This document shows, piece after piece, positions 42,001-44,531 of a stretch of DNA of 64,000 bases (positions within the stretch are counted from its first letter, which is position 1; each line of letters starts with the position of its first letter). This DNA comes from Streptomyces misionensis (GTDB lineage: Bacteria; Actinomycetota; Actinomycetes; Streptomycetales; Streptomycetaceae). Location of the stretch: positions 1-64,000 of the forward strand of contig NZ_VOGW01000013.1 in the NCBI RefSeq assembly GCF_007896895.1, in the 5' to 3' direction. The notes below the pieces were generated by a model that saw only the letters and a program-made list of their open reading frames with translations, was not told the origin of the DNA and did no database searches. The translations under genes were made by a program, and so were the position numbers.

Positions 42001-44531
42001 ACGACCTGGCGTACACCATCTACACCTCGGGCTCGACGGGCCGGCCCAAGGGCGTCCTGGTCACCCACCACGGGCTGGCCAACTACCTGGACTGGGCGCT
42101 CGGTCACTACGGCATGGACGGCGGGCACGGCGCCCCGATGTTCGGCTCGATCGCGTTCGACCTGGCGGTGCCCAGCTTCCTGCTGCCGCTGATCGCGGGC
42201 CGGGACGTGGTGGTCGTACCGGGCGACCGGGGCCAGGAGGCGCTGCCCGAACTGCTGCGGGCGGAGGGCGACTTCAGCATCGTGAAGATCACCCCGGCCC
42301 ATCTCGACCTGGTCACCACCGAGGTCGGCGAGGCGGGCGGCATCGGCTCGGTGCGCACCTTCGTGGTGGGCGGCGAGGAGATGAAGGCCGAGAGCGTCGC
42401 CGCCTGGCGGCGGGTCGCGCCGAACGCCCGGATCATCAACGAGTACGGCCCCACGGAGACCGTCGTCGGCTGTGTCGTACACGACGCGACCGGCGCCGGC
42501 GACCCCGCCCGCCCGGTGCCGATCGGCCGGCCCATCGCCAACACCCAGGTGTACGTGCTGGATTCCGGCATGGAACCGGTTCCGGTCGGTACGGTCGGCG
42601 AGCTGTACCTCGGCGGTGCGGGCGTGGCCCGCGGCTACCTGGGGCGTCCCGCGCTGACCGCGGAGAAGTTCGTGCCGCACCCCTTCGCGTCAACCCCGGG
42701 CCGCCGCCTGTACCGGACCGGGGACCTGGCCAGGTTCCGTCCCGACGGCAGCCTGGAGTTCCTGGGCCGCGGCGACGGCCAGGTCAAGATCCGCGGCTAC
42801 CGGGTGGAGCTGGGCGAGATCGAGGCGGCCCTGCTGCGCGCGCCCGGGGTCCAGGAGACGGTGGTCCTCGCCCGCGAGGACGCGCCCGGTGACCGCCGGC
42901 TGGTCGCCTACGTGGTGCCCGCGCCGGGCGCCGCGCCGGCCCAGGCCGATCTGGTGGAGCACCTGCGCACCCTGCTGCCCGCCTACATGGTCCCGCAGGC
43001 CTTCCTCACCCTGGACGCGCTGCCGCTGGCCGTGTCCGGCAAGGTCGACCGGGCGGCGCTGCCCGCGCCGGACCGGTCGGGCCCGGCCTCGGGGGTCCCC
43101 TACCGGGCGCCCCGCACGGACACCGAGCGTCTCCTCGCGGACGTCTGGTGCCAGGTGCTCGGCGCCCCGCGGGTCGGCCTGGACGACAGCTTCTTCGGGC
43201 TCGGCGGCGACTCCATCCGGGTGCTCCCGGTGATCTCCGCGGCGCGCAAGGCGGGCCTGGTGCTGTCGCTGAGCACGCTGTACGAGAACGAGACGCTGGC
43301 CGAACTCGCCGCGGCCGTCGACCCGGTGCCCGCGCCGGCGGAGCAGCCGGCCGATCCCGACGCGCTCGCCGAGGCGCTGCGCATGGTGATGGCCCACCAG
43401 GACGCGCTCGGGCTGCGCGTGGTGTCCGAGAAGCCGGCCGAACTGCCGTCTCCGGAGGCGGTGATGGCCGAGCACGCGGTGCCGGGCGTCGGGGTCGCGG
43501 TCATCCGTGACGGCGAGGTCGCCGAGATCCGGTCCTACGGCGTCACACGGGCGGGCGGCGACGAGCCGGTCACCCCGGACACGCTCTTCCCGGCCGGGTC
43601 GATCAGCAAGCACGTCACCGCGCTCGGGGTGCTGCGGCTCGCCAAGGACGGGGTGATCGACCTCGACGAGGACGTGAACCGTTATCTGACGTCGTGGCAG
43701 GTGCCCGGCACCGACCCGGGCAACCCGGTCACCGCCGAGCGGCTGCTGCGCTTCACCGGCGCGGTGCACAACGCCACCGACAACCCGGACGACCACTACT
43801 ACGCGCCGGGCGATCCGCTGCCGGCCCCGCTGGACGTGCTGCTCGGACGGGCCCCGGCCAAGACCCCGGCCGGCCGTCTGGACGGCGTCCCCGGCGAGGT
43901 GTTCCTGAAGAACAACATCAGCTACACCGCCTTGCAGCAACTCATGGAGGACGTCACGGGCACGCCCTTCGGGCAGCTGATGCGCGAACTGGTCCTCGGC
44001 CCGCTGGGTATGACGCACAGCCAATACGTGCGCAGCGACCCGCGCGAGCTCGGGCACCCGGTGGCGTACGGGCACGACGCGCCGGGCGTCCCGCACCCCG
44101 GCGGCTGGCAGGCGCACCCGGAGACCGCCGCGGCCGGGCTGTGGACCACGGCGGCCGACCTGGCCCGGGTCACCGTCGAGATCCGGCGGGCCCACCGCGG
44201 CCTGCCGTCGCCGGTGCTCACCCGTGAGCTGACCGAGCGGATGCTGACGATCGTCGAGCCGTGCCACTTCTACGGGATGGGCGTGTTCGTCGACGCCTCC
44301 GGCGGCGGGCTCGACTACGGCCACACCGGGCAGACCGCGGGCTACCGCGCCATGGCGCTGAGCCAGCTGGAGTCCGGCACCGGTCTGGTGATGCTGGCGA
44401 ACGCCGAGCACGCGAGGCCGGTCCTGAAGTGGCTGATGGCGGCCGTGCGCGAGCAGGACCGCTGGTCCGCCAAGGGCGAGCTGGCCCGTCTCTGGGAGGT
44501 CGGCCGGGTCAACCCCGACGCCCAGGACTGA
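21033..44531 (+). CDS. Seven-module NRPS with fused C-terminal beta-lactamase/PBP-like domain
   Basis: This 7832-residue protein reads C-A-T followed by six more C-A-T modules and a terminal serine beta-lactamase-fold domain. Approximate residues: C1 40-480, A1 490-1000, T1 Ser about 1047; module 2 1096-2126; module 3 2136-3153; module 4 3231-4256; module 5 4266-5323; module 6 5330-6373; module 7 6380-7430; PBP-like domain 7467-7823. C1 has HHIACDA. The other six C domains share an unusual HxxxEGW motif. Codes read by eye: A1 DVWNVAMVH (Thr-like); A2, A3 and A4 all DILQLGVIW (Gly-like); A5 DVFLFGLVQ and A6 DAAFGGMTF (unassigned); A7 DLPKVGEVG (Asn-like). The last domain has S7523-I-S-K7526 and HTG at 7764, but Lys7626 where the family has Tyr. 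No E or classical TE domain is present. It probably extends and releases, perhaps cyclises, the nonapeptide. Confidence 0.95.
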   Translation: MTTGAEHSSTGDRLRAELLRRLAGRTTEQRRPEIPRADREQPLRLSPGQQQMWFLQRLEPDSHEYIVPLTLRLTGPLDEAALRRAVDAVAARHEVLRTRYDFVAGRPVQLVDPAGPVPFTTTDLGALPAAERPDVARARAAACAREPFDLGAEWPLRVRLFRLGDEDWVLALLFHHIACDAWSTQIFARDLSACYRGEQPGPALEVQYADYAEWQAGRTEGAALAPHLDYWRRQLAGVAPLELPTDRPRPPVRDTSGATEAFALPDALSARLRELAAAHRTTLFTVLLTAYQTLLSKYTSSTDIAVGTVVSGRVRPEVQQLIGYGINSLVMRAAWDGDPRFSALLERGRTVVLDAFDHQETPFARLVDELQPERDLSRTPLFQAAFTLHESRTAAYDLPGVRVEPFDVPASVARFDLQLQVEESPDGSLQGRFEYATALFDRSTAARFARHLVRLLHAVADTPDARLSALSVLDEAELAVLVDPLTTEAADPRLVHEVFEARAAATPDAIAVVSDGQALTYAELNARANRVAHRLIALGAGPDLVVGICVERGPELIPAILGVLKSGAGYLPLDPANPAERLGYVVGDAGPLAVLTETAHVDLVDGIHDGPVVVLDQERESAAWAALPESNPAAAGHPDQLIYVIYTSGSTGRPKGVCLTHRNVLRLLTTADRHYGFSPEDVWPLFHSYAFDVSVWEMWGALLHGGRLVVVPAAVTRSPDEFLDLLVEQRVTVLNQTPSAFRALVSAAAEGDERIGRLRLRAVVFAGEKLQVPDLQPWVDRLGLDRPALLNMYGITETTVHTTYYRVGPADLRPDAGNPIGVPLGDLRVHLLDAWGEPVPVGVFGEIHVAGPGVARGYLGRPALTAERFVPDPFGPPGSRLYRSGDIARRLPDGSLEFLGRADGQIKIRGYRVELGEIQAALTELDGIRDAVVVLREDVPGQKELVAYTVLAPETSYEPAELRELLGARLPSYMVPAAFVALDRLPLTTNGKLDRRALPAPSGDARRAGGAYTAPRTPTEERLAEVWAEVLGLDKVGVDDGFFDLGGDSIRAVALVGAIRSAGHDITVRDVFEYRTVARLAELLTGRSAPAVVPDPVRPFALIDAADRALLPEGVADAYPLSQVQAGMVLEMSVADGQNNYHNVTSFRLRDERPYDHPSLVEAARIVVARHEALRTSLDLTGYSVPMQLVHEIADMPVGTQSLHGLTEEEIRDAVRAYTARERARVFDLSVPTLMRLFAHDTGNGSWWLSITECHPVLEGWSHHSMLMEILDVYGALRDGRPVEEPERPGTRFADFIAAELQALEDHDDRAYWSRVVADHAPLEVPAGWGDGADAPRATYQASVPVTDLEDRLRALAGRARVSMKSVMLAAHLKVMSQLTGEAAFHTGLVCDARPELPGADRVYGMYLNTLPFAFETGRAATWRELVTQVFAAEIELWPHRRYPMPAVQRLAGSGQLLHVYFNYQDFHQVDTERVDHEAAIDDSPTEFPLTVSSRGGHVIVTANGRMVSQENAERIAAMYRLVLEAMAADFDGDAQAVYLPLGEREVVLRRWNNADTDEQAALVPESFAEQVARVPGAVAVTSGGVSLTYAELDDRSARLAGALAAAGVGAGDVVAVLLERGVGLLVALLAVQRTGAAYLPLDATHPAGRLTGIIEDAAPAVLLTQESLHETATEIHQGTCVLVEEAVTAEPLAPRSVDPSAVAYVLYTSGSTGRPKGVQISHGALGNLLTGIRRVLGRSEAVESWLASTSVSFDISGLELYLPLAGGHRVVIAESGQDLVELIETEHVTHVQATPSGWKLLLESGFRTTSVTALVGGEALPLELAQTLRSHVARLVNVYGPTETTIWSTTWEVPADPTGVSIGAPIDNTQLYIVDTHMEPVPVGVVGELCIAGDGVAQGYLGRPALTAERFVPDPFGPAGTRLYKTGDLARRMPDGSLEFLGRTDHQVKIRGYRIELGEIESRLLTHPTVKDATVIARTEESGDTWLVGYLIPNGAVDQGELRAHLREELPDYMVPGAFVELDTWPLNTAGKLDRKALPAPEVVPQAEYVAPRTEAERKIADAWAAALGLEQVSVEDSFFDLGGDSIRAIVLVGAIRSAGFQVAVQDIFEHRTITELADHLDTHNTPAQTDHYVQPFELINDHDRILLPPDVTDAYPVSQVQLGMLVEMSLGTERAAYHNVDAFRIRDDQPLDPTALQHATDELITRHETLRTGFDLTGYSEPLQLVHEKADLRVTVGAPDDGECENEQRATPFDPAVPPLIRVNALAGAHEHEWQLVFTHAHPILEGWSYHALLTELLDLYRAFRDGRDVAPAASEGSRFADFIAAEQASVAGESDQAYWGRVVADHTTLTVPAGWGDESVAAGTAHRFPIELRDLDERLRALAGRARVSMKSVLLAAHLKVLSQLTSETAFHTGLVCDTRPELRGADRVYGLHLNTIPFPFDADRAVTWRELVAQVFEQETELWPHRRYPLPAIQRDAGGNRLLDVYFNYQDFSKVDGEEVDELGDIDEVPTEFPLMVATRGSYIVLTADGRMVSRANAERIAAMYRLVLEAMAADFDGDAQAVYLPLGEREVVLRRWNNADTDEQAALVPESFAEQVARVPGAVAVTSGGVSLTYAELDDRSARLAGALAAAGVGAGDVVAVLLERGVGLLVALLAVQRTGAAYLPLDATHPAGRLTGIIEDAAPAVLLTQKSLHETATEIHQGTCVLVDEGAAAEPLAARSVDPSAVAYVLYTSGSTGRPKGVQISHLALGNLLTGIRRTLGAPTSPESWLASTSVSFDISGLELYLPLTGGHRVVIAESGQDLVDLIETEHVTHVQATPSGWKLLLESGFRTASVTALVGGEALPVELAQVLRSRVARLVNVYGPTETTIWSTTWEVPANPTTVSIGAPIDNTQLYIVDTHMEPVPVGVVGELCIAGDGVAQGYLGRPALTAERFVPDPFGPAGTRLYKTGDLARRMPDGSLEFLGRTDHQVKIRGYRIELGEIESRLLTHPTVKDATVIARTEDTGDTWLVGYLIPNDTTDHNELRAHLRETLPDYMVPGAFVELDTWPLNTAGKLDRKALPTPERGEERPYIAPRTNDEARIAGAWETALGLERVGVDDSFFDLGGDSIRAVSLVGALKALGYSLTVRTIFTYQTVAELARHLAAQAPQEESVSPSEKDSRTATADAAEALTGALRAAGIDLASGGLSENTSVADLLALLQQKQAEPEAATEAAGPKEAGTAPFALVPAEDRDRIPEGLADAYPLSQVQTGMAVEVLLENAGDDYHRVTSFRVRDGHAFSREALETAARTVVARHEILRTSIALTGFSVPMQLVHADAEVPVAVEDFTDLGEAATRDAVRAYVRREEDTPFDLDTAPLLRVAGLVESADCWSLALTHSHIILEGWSHHSLLMELLDVYRAVRDGQDPDAGREAVGVRFADFVAGELESLGDDADRAYWQRIVADHPAVTLPAGWGEESTADSFRQPVAYRDLEDGLRALAERARVSMKSVLLAAHLKVMSQLTEEESFSAGLVFDARPELLGAEKVLGMHLNTVPFAHRRGAPTWARLVRQVFEQEMDLWEHRRYPLPSIQRLTEAGQPAVEVLFTYQNYHQVDTGLIEVGAEQGDTTSQFQLAVTTLAGHLMLTADGNALSRVNAERIAAMYRLVLEAMAADPDGDALATRLPDEEQVHVVARWNDTTTDEPARCVPELFAEQVARVPGAVAVTSGGVSLTYAELDDRSARLAGALASAGVGAGDVVAVLLERSADLLVALLAVQRTGAAYLPLDATHPAGRLTGIIEDAAPAVLLTQESLHETATEIHQGPRVLVDEGAAAEPLAPRSVDPSAVAYVLYTSGSTGRPKGVQISHGALGNLLTGIRRILGAPTGSESWLASTSVSFDISGLELYLPLTGGHRVVIAESGQDLVELIETEHVTHVQATPSGWKLLLESGFRTTSVTALVGGEALPLELAQTLRSHVTRLVNVYGPTETTIWSTTWEVPANPTTVSIGAPIDNTQLYIVDTHMEPVPVGVVGELCIAGDGVAQGYLGRPALTAERFVPDPFGPAGTRLYKTGDLARRMPDGSLEFLGRTDHQVKIRGYRIELGEIESRLLTHPTVKDATVIARTEDTGDTWLVGYLIPNGAIDQGELRAHLREELPDYMVPGAFVELDAWPLNTAGKLDRKALPAPEVVPQAEYVAPRTEAERKIADAWAAALGLEQVSVEDSFFDLGGDSIRAIVLVGAIRSAGFQVAVQDIFEHRTITELADHLDTHNTPAQTDHYVQPFELINDHDRILLPPDVTDAYPVSQVQLGMLVEMSLGTERAAYHNVDAFRIRDDQPLDPTALQHATDELITRHETLRTGFNLTGYSEPLQLVHDAVTHPVTVTDLSGLDGDAFAAALRAVNEEESAAPFDLARPPLLRARAVLQDEESWWLVLTHAHPILEGWSYHSVMAELVELYHQFVERGVFEPARPTPSRFADFVAAELASLDDAGDQAYWQAMVTDHAGFELPSLWGDPRGADAESYETFQVHVPMHDLEPRLRELATAAGASPKSVVLAAHLKVLAQLTEEESFFAGLAFDARPELPGADRVVGMHLNTVPFPYDRTTRTWRELVGRVFRQEAELWAHRRYPLPAIQRTAGGNRLLSTVFNYLDFHQVDTAVVDEEASVGIGTTEFPLAVVARGGYLGLRTDTRHLGREQAARLAGMYRMVLEAMAADPDGDARGTFLPASDRALAPAEAVASGPVTDTLHALFARQAALRPDAGAVTAGGGTLSYAELDARANRIAHRLRELGVGAESVVGLCLGRGAGLVPSLLGVLKAGAAYLPLDPAQPAARLATMVEDLGPKVVITETAHLAVAESAHGGALIVLDGADEPLLDALPDTAVAQVTDPGQLAYVIYTSGSTGVPKGIGVSHANVLRLMRATAERFPLDEGHVWPLVHSFAFDVSVFELWAALLHGSRLVMVDADTARDPDALLDLAVAERFTVLLNSPSAFRGVAAAAERGDERLGRVPLRAMFFGGEKHTGAALAPWIDRFGLGEPQLVELYGPTEATVQVTHHRITEADLSAPAIPLGLPLPGTRVHVLDREGHLVPAGVPGELYIGGPQVSRGYLNRPALTAERFLPDPFGTPGARLYRTGDMGRMLADGGIEFLGRVDDQVKIRGYRVELGEIQAVLNAHPAVLQAAVVTDSTAPGDPRIAAYAVPAEDALPAPAELAAYCRARLPEYMVPAAFTQLARIPLISNTKVDRKALPAPDWSALAGRQEHIAPRTDRERRVAEVWGEVLGLDAPGVEDSFFEVGGDSIRAVALVGALRTAGFAVTVRDVFDVRTIAALAALDTSDRDGDTAFVGVRPFALVGEADRAALPDGLADAYPVAQAQLGILVEQLADAEALKYVNVSAFRVLDEQPPVLAALRAAVTELAARHEVLRTSFALTGFSQPLQLVHREAGLTVAERDLRGLGESARAAAVADFVAVERTTPFPADARSLLRVTVLPEDERAWWLGLTQSHAITEGWSHHSMVAELLDLYRSFRDTGGPGEWSVPGVRYADFVAGELQSLAGGEDRAHWLAVTADHEPFELPADLGDDSAEPETFTLRVPFADVEAGLRELAGRAQASMKAVLHAAHLAVLARLTGQERFSAGLATDARPEAVGAERVLGMHLNTVPFAFERGARSWRELVAQVYRREAADWPHRRYPLPAMQRDADGRRLVDVTFNYQDYRHLDSGEIDAGASDGAAATEFALIVTTTGGRLSLTTHTGVLGRAEAERIASMYRATVLAMAADAEGEAVAPLPGGEAELLLGWGTGPAGRDTGTVVGLFAEQVASRPGHPAVSHGDTVLTYAELDARTDRLAARLRRAGAVPGAVVAVGMDRSAPLPVALLAVLKTGAAYLPVDPAYPDERKEFMLRDSGAALLVTDGRADVAPEGWGGTVVVAADEPAEDVPRGAFPAVHPDQLAYVMYTSGSTGTPKGTMITHRGVVRTVTEDANLQVGPDDVVAHASSVSFDAATAEIWSALLNGARLEILDRDTVLETEALAAAVEERGITTLFLTTSLFNHVARTVPGTLGRLRTVGFGGEAGDVTTVRELLRTGAPERLVNMYGPTENTTFSAVQVISGLGERAGSVPIGRPVHASTAYVVDAELRLVPRGVPGELCVGGAGMARGYHGRGGLTAERFVPNPFGAPGERMYRTGDLVRWLPDGTLEFLGRADHQVKLRGHRIELGEIETALHGHPALTAAAVALREDAPGDKRLVAYTVAGPGAAPSPVELREHLVNLLPEYMVPAAFVALQRLPLTAHGKLDVRALPVPDDAAFAAGREFTAPRTDDERRMARVWREVLGLDRVGVEESFFNLGGDSIRAVTLVGALRTAGFQVTVGDVFEQRTIARLATAGAGRTADELRYVEPFALIGAEDRALLPDGVTDAYPLSQLQTGMLVEQLSASGTGTYHHTTSFDIKDGHPFDADALYEAAQIVTARHEALRTGLDLDTYSVPMQLVFARAEMPVAVHDLTGLGPDQVAARVAEISTAEQENPFDVTRPTLLRLAAAFGDHGWRLFISLNHTIIEGWSHYNIWMEVLTAYGELRAGRRPVDPERPEVRFADFIAGELESLASAEERGYWKDVVGRHTRFALPAAWGEEPEPGTEPRTFSVEVSLHDIQDRIREAARAADVPVKSVLLAAHLKVLSQLTEEDAFHSGLVCDARPEAPGAEQVIGMYLTTLPIGFRRGARTWRELIRQVFASETALWPNRRFPMPEVQREAGNGRLIDVFFNYLDFRQVDTDLMDMSSSVREGGTEFDLAVTTLAGELGLLTNTRVMTRAEAERLGAMYRAVLDAVVDDLDGDALAVYLPEGERERLLGAWSGDAGTAFDGRPVHHRIAEHAAAAPDAVAVVVGERTTTYGELDAAANRMAHHLLGLGVVRGDFVGVLAERGVDQLVAVLGALKAGAAYLPLDPEAPAERLAHQLTDSAAPVLVTQERWLAGLPATGARVVCADRDAAAIARQSGDAPHAPVTGDDLAYTIYTSGSTGRPKGVLVTHHGLANYLDWALGHYGMDGGHGAPMFGSIAFDLAVPSFLLPLIAGRDVVVVPGDRGQEALPELLRAEGDFSIVKITPAHLDLVTTEVGEAGGIGSVRTFVVGGEEMKAESVAAWRRVAPNARIINEYGPTETVVGCVVHDATGAGDPARPVPIGRPIANTQVYVLDSGMEPVPVGTVGELYLGGAGVARGYLGRPALTAEKFVPHPFASTPGRRLYRTGDLARFRPDGSLEFLGRGDGQVKIRGYRVELGEIEAALLRAPGVQETVVLAREDAPGDRRLVAYVVPAPGAAPAQADLVEHLRTLLPAYMVPQAFLTLDALPLAVSGKVDRAALPAPDRSGPASGVPYRAPRTDTERLLADVWCQVLGAPRVGLDDSFFGLGGDSIRVLPVISAARKAGLVLSLSTLYENETLAELAAAVDPVPAPAEQPADPDALAEALRMVMAHQDALGLRVVSEKPAELPSPEAVMAEHAVPGVGVAVIRDGEVAEIRSYGVTRAGGDEPVTPDTLFPAGSISKHVTALGVLRLAKDGVIDLDEDVNRYLTSWQVPGTDPGNPVTAERLLRFTGAVHNATDNPDDHYYAPGDPLPAPLDVLLGRAPAKTPAGRLDGVPGEVFLKNNISYTALQQLMEDVTGTPFGQLMRELVLGPLGMTHSQYVRSDPRELGHPVAYGHDAPGVPHPGGWQAHPETAAAGLWTTAADLARVTVEIRRAHRGLPSPVLTRELTERMLTIVEPCHFYGMGVFVDASGGGLDYGHTGQTAGYRAMALSQLESGTGLVMLANAEHARPVLKWLMAAVREQDRWSAKGELARLWEVGRVNPDAQD
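25563..26014 (+). repeat. Internal NRPS repeat R1, copy 1 (C2 end to A2 start)
   Basis: By eye this segment appears identical base for base to 28652-29103 (offset 3089). A third, diverged copy runs from about 31970 to 32410. It covers the end of a C domain, the C-A linker and the A-domain start. Near-identity at DNA level implies recent duplication or gene conversion. Confidence 0.85.
27162..27721 (+). repeat. Internal NRPS repeat R2, copy 1 (T2 plus start of C3)
   Basis: About 560 bp covering the end of A2, all of T2 and the first part of C3 match 33555-34114 (offset 6393). I saw only one mismatch, GACCTC versus AACCTC, changing Asp to Asn in the C domain. Confidence 0.85.
28652..29103 (+). 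repeat. Internal NRPS repeat R1, copy 2 (C3 end to A3 start)
   Basis: Apparently identical to 25563-26014. The identity stops inside the ATPase-like N-lobe of the A domain (CCCGCG versus CCCGCC at the boundary), after which the two copies differ by scattered synonymous changes. Confidence 0.85.
29839..30033 (+). repeat. Internal NRPS repeat R3, copy 1 (A3 C-terminal subdomain)
   Basis: This segment of A3 appears identical to 33139-33333 in A4; the same region of A2 (26749-26943) differs at a few synonymous positions. It encodes the A7-A8 core region (YKTGD to GEIESRLL), part of the duplicated Gly-type A domains. Confidence 0.75.
33139..33333 (+). repeat. Internal NRPS repeat R3, copy 2 (A4 C-terminal subdomain)
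   Basis: Matches 29839-30033 apparently base for base. Together with R1 and R2 it makes modules 2-4 of the large NRPS a mosaic of shared blocks with different partners in each block. Confidence 0.75.
33555..34114 (+). repeat. Internal NRPS repeat R2, copy 2 (T4 plus start of C5)
   Basis: Matches 27162-27721 with a single mismatch seen. Immediately after 34114 the sequence and its codon style change sharply to the copy-specific remainder of C5. Confidence 0.85.

Follow-up and report, generated by a model that had tools for sequence, protein, structure and literature searches.

How a nonribosomal peptide synthetase (NRPS) frees its product when its last domain is something other than an alpha/beta-hydrolase thioesterase (TE) is the question raised by a 64,000-nucleotide stretch of Streptomyces misionensis DNA (assembly GCF_007896895.1, contig NZ_VOGW01000013.1, positions 1 to 64,000), hereafter the window. 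In it, a 7832-residue NRPS ends in a domain of the penicillin-binding protein (PBP)/beta-lactamase fold that has lost the Tyr of its family. We consider it probable that this domain, placed in cis at the end of the assembly line, is the release TE, which would hold the peptide as a predicted Ser-Lys acyl-enzyme and then macrocyclise it. The analysis shows the fusion, the kept Ser, Lys and His, a single loss of Tyr on the tree, the absence of epimerisation (E) domains, the type of condensation (C) domains and the neighbouring genes.

The first-pass annotation, made from the letters of the window, had proposed that this NRPS ends in a serine beta-lactamase-fold domain and not in an alpha/beta-hydrolase TE, and the Pfam scan agreed with it. 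The C-terminal order was PP-binding followed by Beta-lactamase (PF00144, 1.8e-48), and the last 496 residues matched these two families only, with no PF00975 match at the C-terminus. The last carrier (T) motif lies at residue 7391 and the PBP match starts near residue 7476, while the tail after the domain is 23 residues long and holds no lipocalin-like domain. Assignment to the class C beta-lactamases failed, as bla_class_C gave 63.9 bits against a curated cut-off of 415. The AlphaFold2 model of the domain had a mean pLDDT (predicted local distance difference test) of 92.5. The motifs SISK (S7523, K7526) and HTG (H7764) were intact, as had been noted, and SISK, FLKNN, HTGQ and FTGA each occur once within the whole protein. 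The placing of Lys7626 of FLKNN at the family Tyr also stood, because alignments with Protein Data Bank (PDB) structures set this Lys opposite the Tyr that SurE (6ksu) has in FSYSN, the R61 DD-peptidase in YSYSN and 2qmi in FFYLN. Moreover, the flanks of the motif, PGxxF-x-K-x-N....QQLMEDVTG, line up with PGxxFRYSGxxY..QQLMEDVTG of the stand-alone relatives, so that no true Tyr elsewhere takes the Y-x-N position.

The fusion of the PBP domain to the NRPS is not accidental, since a first search with the domain among large proteins only returned 59 proteins, and all 59 were NRPSs with PF00144 whose domain ended at most 21 residues from the C-terminus. In this set together with the window (n = 60), the Ser and Lys of SxxK were found in 60, His in 59 and Asn in 55, and the Tyr column held K 31, V 6, E 6, L 3, Q 3, Y 3, N 2, M 2, R 2, P 1 and S 1. 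A further search raised the set to 124 large proteins scanned, 83 of them with the PBP domain (80 Tyr-less and 3 Tyr-bearing). The protein lists were ordered by likeness to the window, taking the best 120 of 1526 and, for the later large-protein search, the best 120 of 329, with near-identical relatives included; matches of 60 bits or less and matches without the Ser (shadow frames) were dropped before counting. Among the matches listed, the 80 Tyr-less NRPSs kept Ser, Lys and His in every case and Asn in 72, and their Tyr column read K 43, E 10, V 6, Q 4, L 3, A 3, S 3, N 2, M 2, R 2, G 1 and P 1. As 37 of the 80 carry another residue (eleven kinds, many not ionisable), Lys cannot be a base that the clade as a whole requires, and its role as a conserved replacement base was ruled out at that level. 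The first-pass annotation had seen a Tyr-to-Lys swap in a possible new type of release or cyclisation domain; the Lys does replace Tyr in this protein and the cis fusion lies at the release position, but the trait of the clade is the loss of Tyr, with Lys in a little over half of its NRPSs.

For the wider comparison, domains from proteins and loci were pooled and divided into a near class (above 160 bits) and a far class (60–160 bits). The 109 Tyr-less domains of this pool all have a C-terminal tail of 43 residues or less. Y7631, at +5 from Lys7626, was considered as a compensating Tyr and rejected as not required, its column being Y 76, F 26 and W 7; R7718, Y7747, D7754 and Y7771 are also typical of the clade. 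The reported replacement of the HTSG loop by FTGA was found, with F7574 at the His position, but it is a trait of the subfamily: 79 of the 109 domains keep H at this position of H-x-SG and 14 have F. A T-like motif upstream was missing from the motif scan in 18 of the 109. Four of these (P0023, P0031, L072 and L089) are NRPS reading-frame ends with a missed motif or NRPS locus ends, and most of the remaining ones are short or contig-end proteins, though some of the 18 may be truly unfused. The genome of the window itself has a second NRPS with a Tyr-less PBP end (KTN; L020, G000 contig C154:33424-34434), 46% identical. In a survey of the genus, 27 of 392 genomes, that of the window included, matched the PBP domain at 1e-35, and among 396 drawn from the whole phylum 3 did so.

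A FastTree phylogeny of 234 domains placed the Tyr-less domains in one clade of 108 leaves (support 0.994). Its sister group (0.871) comprised 109 Tyr-bearing relatives that came from the search for stand-alone proteins, and the joint node of 217 leaves had a support of 0.998. This sister group consists of serine hydrolases of the YSG type with PF00144 and, in many cases, PF11954 (for example P0079-P0099 and L005-L010), which share QQLMEDVTG and 37–46% identity but are unfused, keep the Tyr and in most cases carry a C-terminal tail of 90–230 residues. By parsimony, the Tyr-less clade begins with a single Y to K change and shows no reversion to Tyr; K later gave way to Q, L, R, N, E and M, which in turn gave rise to S, P, V and others, making 16 changes in total. 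We infer that Lys was the ancestral state after the loss of Tyr and was kept in the 7.8-kb subfamily. In the pool as a whole, Tyr was found in 115 domains above 160 bits (99 with a tail of at least 60 residues and 16 with a shorter one, of which six are NRPS ends) and in all 49 S-x-x-K domains at 60–160 bits. The latter include 30 of 30 SurE-like loci, in which the Tyr is kept and the C-terminal tail is about 105–122 residues long; a SurE-like match was present in 79 of the 295 genomes searched.

The kinship with SurE-type cyclases put forward in the first pass was not upheld. The SurE-type leaves fall outside the joint node of the Tyr-less domains and YSG-type hydrolases, and the window domain branches with the latter and has no lipocalin-like tail. 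It resembles a PBP-type TE in its anatomy, but without the Tyr, the lipocalin-like domain and the SurE branching it is not a member of the SurE family. The idea that SurE-type cyclases are known only as stand-alone proteins likewise fell, as a 2026 report describes BifB of biffamycin A with a SurE domain encoded in cis, the deletion of which abolishes the product, and calls it a unique observation; BifB adds Gly last (PMC13285481). A fused SurE-type domain was also present in our pool (L059, G065:C1). It follows a carrier domain, has the Tyr and a tail of about 105–122 residues, is possibly of the BifB kind, and the window domain is 29% identical to it. A further candidate, L060, was rejected as its long open frame is missing the carrier motif. 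Like that of BifB, the window domain sits after the last carrier domain as a predicted release or cyclisation domain; unlike it, the form of the window occurs in at least 80 NRPSs and is without the Tyr and the long tail, a contrast drawn through L059 as a SurE-type stand-in and, for BifB, through its description.

In the release mechanism that we propose, the finished peptide would be passed from the carrier domain onto Ser7523, with Lys7526 as the activating residue. In peptidases, the Tyr protonates an amine leaving group, a help that a thiolate should not need. Since the leaving group here would be a thiolate, the Tyr would be dispensable for its protonation. A nucleophile within the peptide would then attack the acyl-enzyme and macrocyclise the chain, and Lys7526, Asn7628 and His7764 would hold the site, possibly with Lys7626 in this subfamily. 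The conservation of Ser, Lys, Asn and His suggests that an acyl-enzyme is formed. We favour cyclisation over hydrolysis because known PBP-type TEs cyclise and because, in the PBP/beta-lactamase fold, the Tyr is taken to help activate the attacking water. Two reviews give the tetrad of PBP-type TEs differently, as Ser, His, Asn and Lys (PMC11735501) and as Ser-Lys-Tyr-His (PMC7459860); of these, the Tyr-less clade carries the former and lacks the latter.

In the non-SurE fused ends, the Tyr also goes together with epimerisation. An E-type domain stood directly before the PBP domain in all six non-SurE Tyr-bearing fused ends (P0056, P0059, P0060, L083, L085 and L013), with the motif RTVGWF in five of them and a degenerate one in P0059. 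These ends resemble the window domain in their position at the NRPS C-terminus and their short tail, but differ in the Tyr, the preceding E-type domain and, in the three large ones, canonical HHxxxD C domains. A regular-expression search found the epimerisation motif in 0 of 80 Tyr-less NRPSs versus 3 of 3 large Tyr-bearing ones. In the large NRPS of the window, 654–727 residues lie between each carrier motif and the following A3 motif of the adenylation (A) domain, a spacing that fits one C domain only, so there is no E domain between its modules. The C-terminal residue of the product would be L-configured, or at least not epimerised.

The C domains themselves are of a particular type, as six of the seven in the large NRPS carry xHxxxEGWS instead of HHxxxDG. 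At least one such C domain was found in 80 of 80 Tyr-less NRPSs versus 0 of 3 Tyr-bearing large ones. The type is not exclusive to them: it was seen in 19 of 41 scanned proteins without a PBP domain, many of them marked partial, and a PF00975 TE is listed in five of those 19 (P0217, P0218 and P0220-P0222). Two Lentzea proteins, P0184 and P0185, have xHxxxEGWS C domains, but no PBP or TE domain is listed at their end. We put forward tentatively, with more doubt than confidence, that the Tyr-less domains form another class of PBP-type release domains in cis, which evolved separately and is spread through actinomycete NRPSs. They would carry out acyl transfer with Ser-Lys-(Asn)-His and without Tyr, would be freed from the D-configured acyl donor on which penicillin-binding proteins act, would cyclise peptides that end in an L residue and would have coevolved with the xHxxxEGWS C domains as a new type.

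Several points weigh against this picture. The catalytic activity of the PBP domain is a prediction from its residues, and 12 of 15 Tyr-less loci also have a gene for a stand-alone TE (PF00975), which could be the releaser. The HxG His is also lost in three Tyr-less metagenomic proteins, P0070 (A), P0074 (I) and P0077 (A), so some members may be decaying. In the tree, the Tyr-bearing fused domains outside the Tyr-less clade are five in one clade (0.64) plus L013, with a backbone support of 0.088, and the branching order of these lines is weak. The epimerisation motif, being a regular expression, matched 9 of 22 other NRPSs. Furthermore, L059 keeps the Tyr directly after a carrier domain without an E domain, which, together with the Gly at the end of the BifB product, indicates that the Tyr does not require an E domain. 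The correlation between Tyr loss and absence of the E domain should be read as a lead that falls short of statistical proof, because it reflects about one evolutionary event and not independent ones.

An alternative is that the PBP domain hydrolyses the peptide off as a linear acid. Its closest stand-alone relatives bear the annotation serine hydrolase, solved relatives include esterases and peptidases (IS11 7spn, R61 and EstB), and the lipocalin-like domain of the SurE type is missing, as the short tails of the Tyr-less domains illustrate. However, the Tyr is taken to help activate water in this fold, and the Tyr-less clade looks less suited to hydrolysis. Moreover, the published PBP-type TEs are cyclases (PMC11735501), and we regard hydrolysis as unlikely.

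It is rather unlikely, too, that the stand-alone TE at 47902-48687 releases the peptide while the PBP domain performs no catalysis and serves as a gate or for docking. The clade-wide loss of Tyr, the frequent PF00975 gene and the three fragments without His would fit such a role, but none of the 80 complete-end NRPSs departs from Ser, Lys and His, and the domain has a dN/dS of 0.24 against its orthologue in L001 and 0.20 against that in L002, similar to the preceding A-T stretch (0.29 and 0.20). In addition, stand-alone TEs next to NRPSs are mostly editing enzymes. The capture of an ordinary SurE-type cyclase in cis is highly improbable, because the common fold, SxxK and HxG, the 24% identity across 333 residues aligned with SurE and the published BifB precedent are set against the Tyr and long tail of all 30 SurE-like loci compared and of L059, both absent here, the low identity to L059 and the branching with other hydrolases.

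With the stand-alone PBP-type TEs SurE, Ulm16, PenA, WolJ and FlkO (PMC11735501), the window domain has in common the fold, the SxxK Ser and Lys, the Asn and the His; it differs from them in standing in cis and in having no lipocalin-like domain, Tyr or E domain that supplies a C-terminal D residue. The ClbP peptidase (3o3v, 7mdc) and the R61 DD-peptidase share the fold and SxxK but are separate enzymes, R61 with the Tyr. Rotihibin was considered as a related cluster and rejected, since it ends in a reductase domain (PMC8552735). In the open-licence literature searched, we found no description of the Tyr-less fused PBP clade and no cis PBP-type release domain besides BifB. PBP-type TEs are sought after as biocatalysts for peptide cyclisation, but their use is restricted because they need D or Gly at the C-terminus of the substrate (PMC11735501). 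The Tyr-less set without E domains offers a direct handle on the need for the Tyr in thioester release within the PBP fold, and it also bears on whether the D-selectivity can be lifted. It further gives a signature by which to recognise a group of NRPSs; without it, annotation would take their release step for a stray beta-lactamase.

The features of the locus are collected in the table.

Table. Features of the assembly line, its terminal PBP domain and the genes downstream, in window coordinates.
Feature	Position	Strand	Basis
First NRPS, 1704 aa, A-T-C-A-T, without a starting C domain	15922..21036	+	ORF (open reading frame), motif scans
Second NRPS (7832 aa) with seven C-A-T modules and a terminal PBP domain	21033..44531	+	ORF, Pfam and motif scans
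C domain with xHxxxEGWS, second of the NRPS	24378..25622	+	Motif scans
C domain with xHxxxEGWS, third	27492..28529	+	Motif scans
C domain with xHxxxEGWS, fourth	30777..32027	+	Motif scans
C domain with xHxxxEGWS, fifth	33885..35153	+	Motif scans
C domain with xHxxxEGWS, sixth	37089..38330	+	Motif scans
C domain with xHxxxEGWS, seventh, last module	40230..41519	+	Motif scans
Terminal carrier (T) domain, GGDSI	43131..43319	+	PF00550 and motif
Cis-fused PBP/beta-lactamase-fold domain, short tail and stop	43428..44531	+	PF00144 match 43458-44414
SISK, residues 7523-7526: S7523 (nucleophile) and K7526	43599..43610	+	Motif; roles inferred from family
FTGA, F7574 at the position of His in stand-alone relatives	43752..43763	+	Motif
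K7626-N-N7628 (of FLKNN, residues 7624-7628), replaces Tyr-x-Asn	43908..43916	+	Motif, PDB alignments
HTG (HTGQ), H7764	44322..44330	+	Motif
Divergent ornithine carbamoyltransferase-like enzyme; its gene directly follows the PBP domain in 12 of 15 Tyr-less loci	44609..45580	+	Profile matches, locus comparison
TauD-family dioxygenase	46925..47866	+	Profile matches, locus comparison
Stand-alone type II thioesterase (PF00975), rival release enzyme	47902..48687	+	Profile matches, locus comparison

The carbamoyltransferase-like gene, the TauD dioxygenase and the stand-alone TE were found together downstream in 12 of 15 Tyr-less loci, of which L001, L002 and L099 are close relatives of the window cluster. 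The trio was not in the examined stretches of L093, L097 and L104, nor in that of the one Tyr-bearing locus, L103 (n = 1); L104 is a second Tyr-less locus of the same genome, and no carbamoyltransferase or TauD gene lies within its examined downstream stretch. In distant clusters, the carbamoyltransferase-like and TauD proteins are 66–75% identical versus 42–49% for the PBP domains (TauD 39% in L095), and from this difference the two genes may make a shared unusual residue.

The final A domain of the large NRPS has the code DLPKVGEVG, which we take to be Asn-like, and DLPK opens the last A-domain code in 39 of 57 Tyr-less NRPSs. The code DILQLGVIW, presumably Gly-like, is the same in modules 2–4 of this NRPS, and the repeat is kept in several relatives.

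Upstream of the NRPS genes, the second half of the ORF at 3550-5877 matched an SbnB-type 2,3-diaminopropionate enzyme (390.8 bits against a cut-off of 326.9), pointing to a predicted diaminopropionate building block. The stretch 9738-12883 contains two ketosynthase-like genes, the first of which matches AmcF of cispentacin below the cut-off, and a short-chain dehydrogenase. A gene of the tryptophan halogenase family (PF04820, 9.4e-166) lies upstream of the cluster at 1859-3463 on the minus strand.

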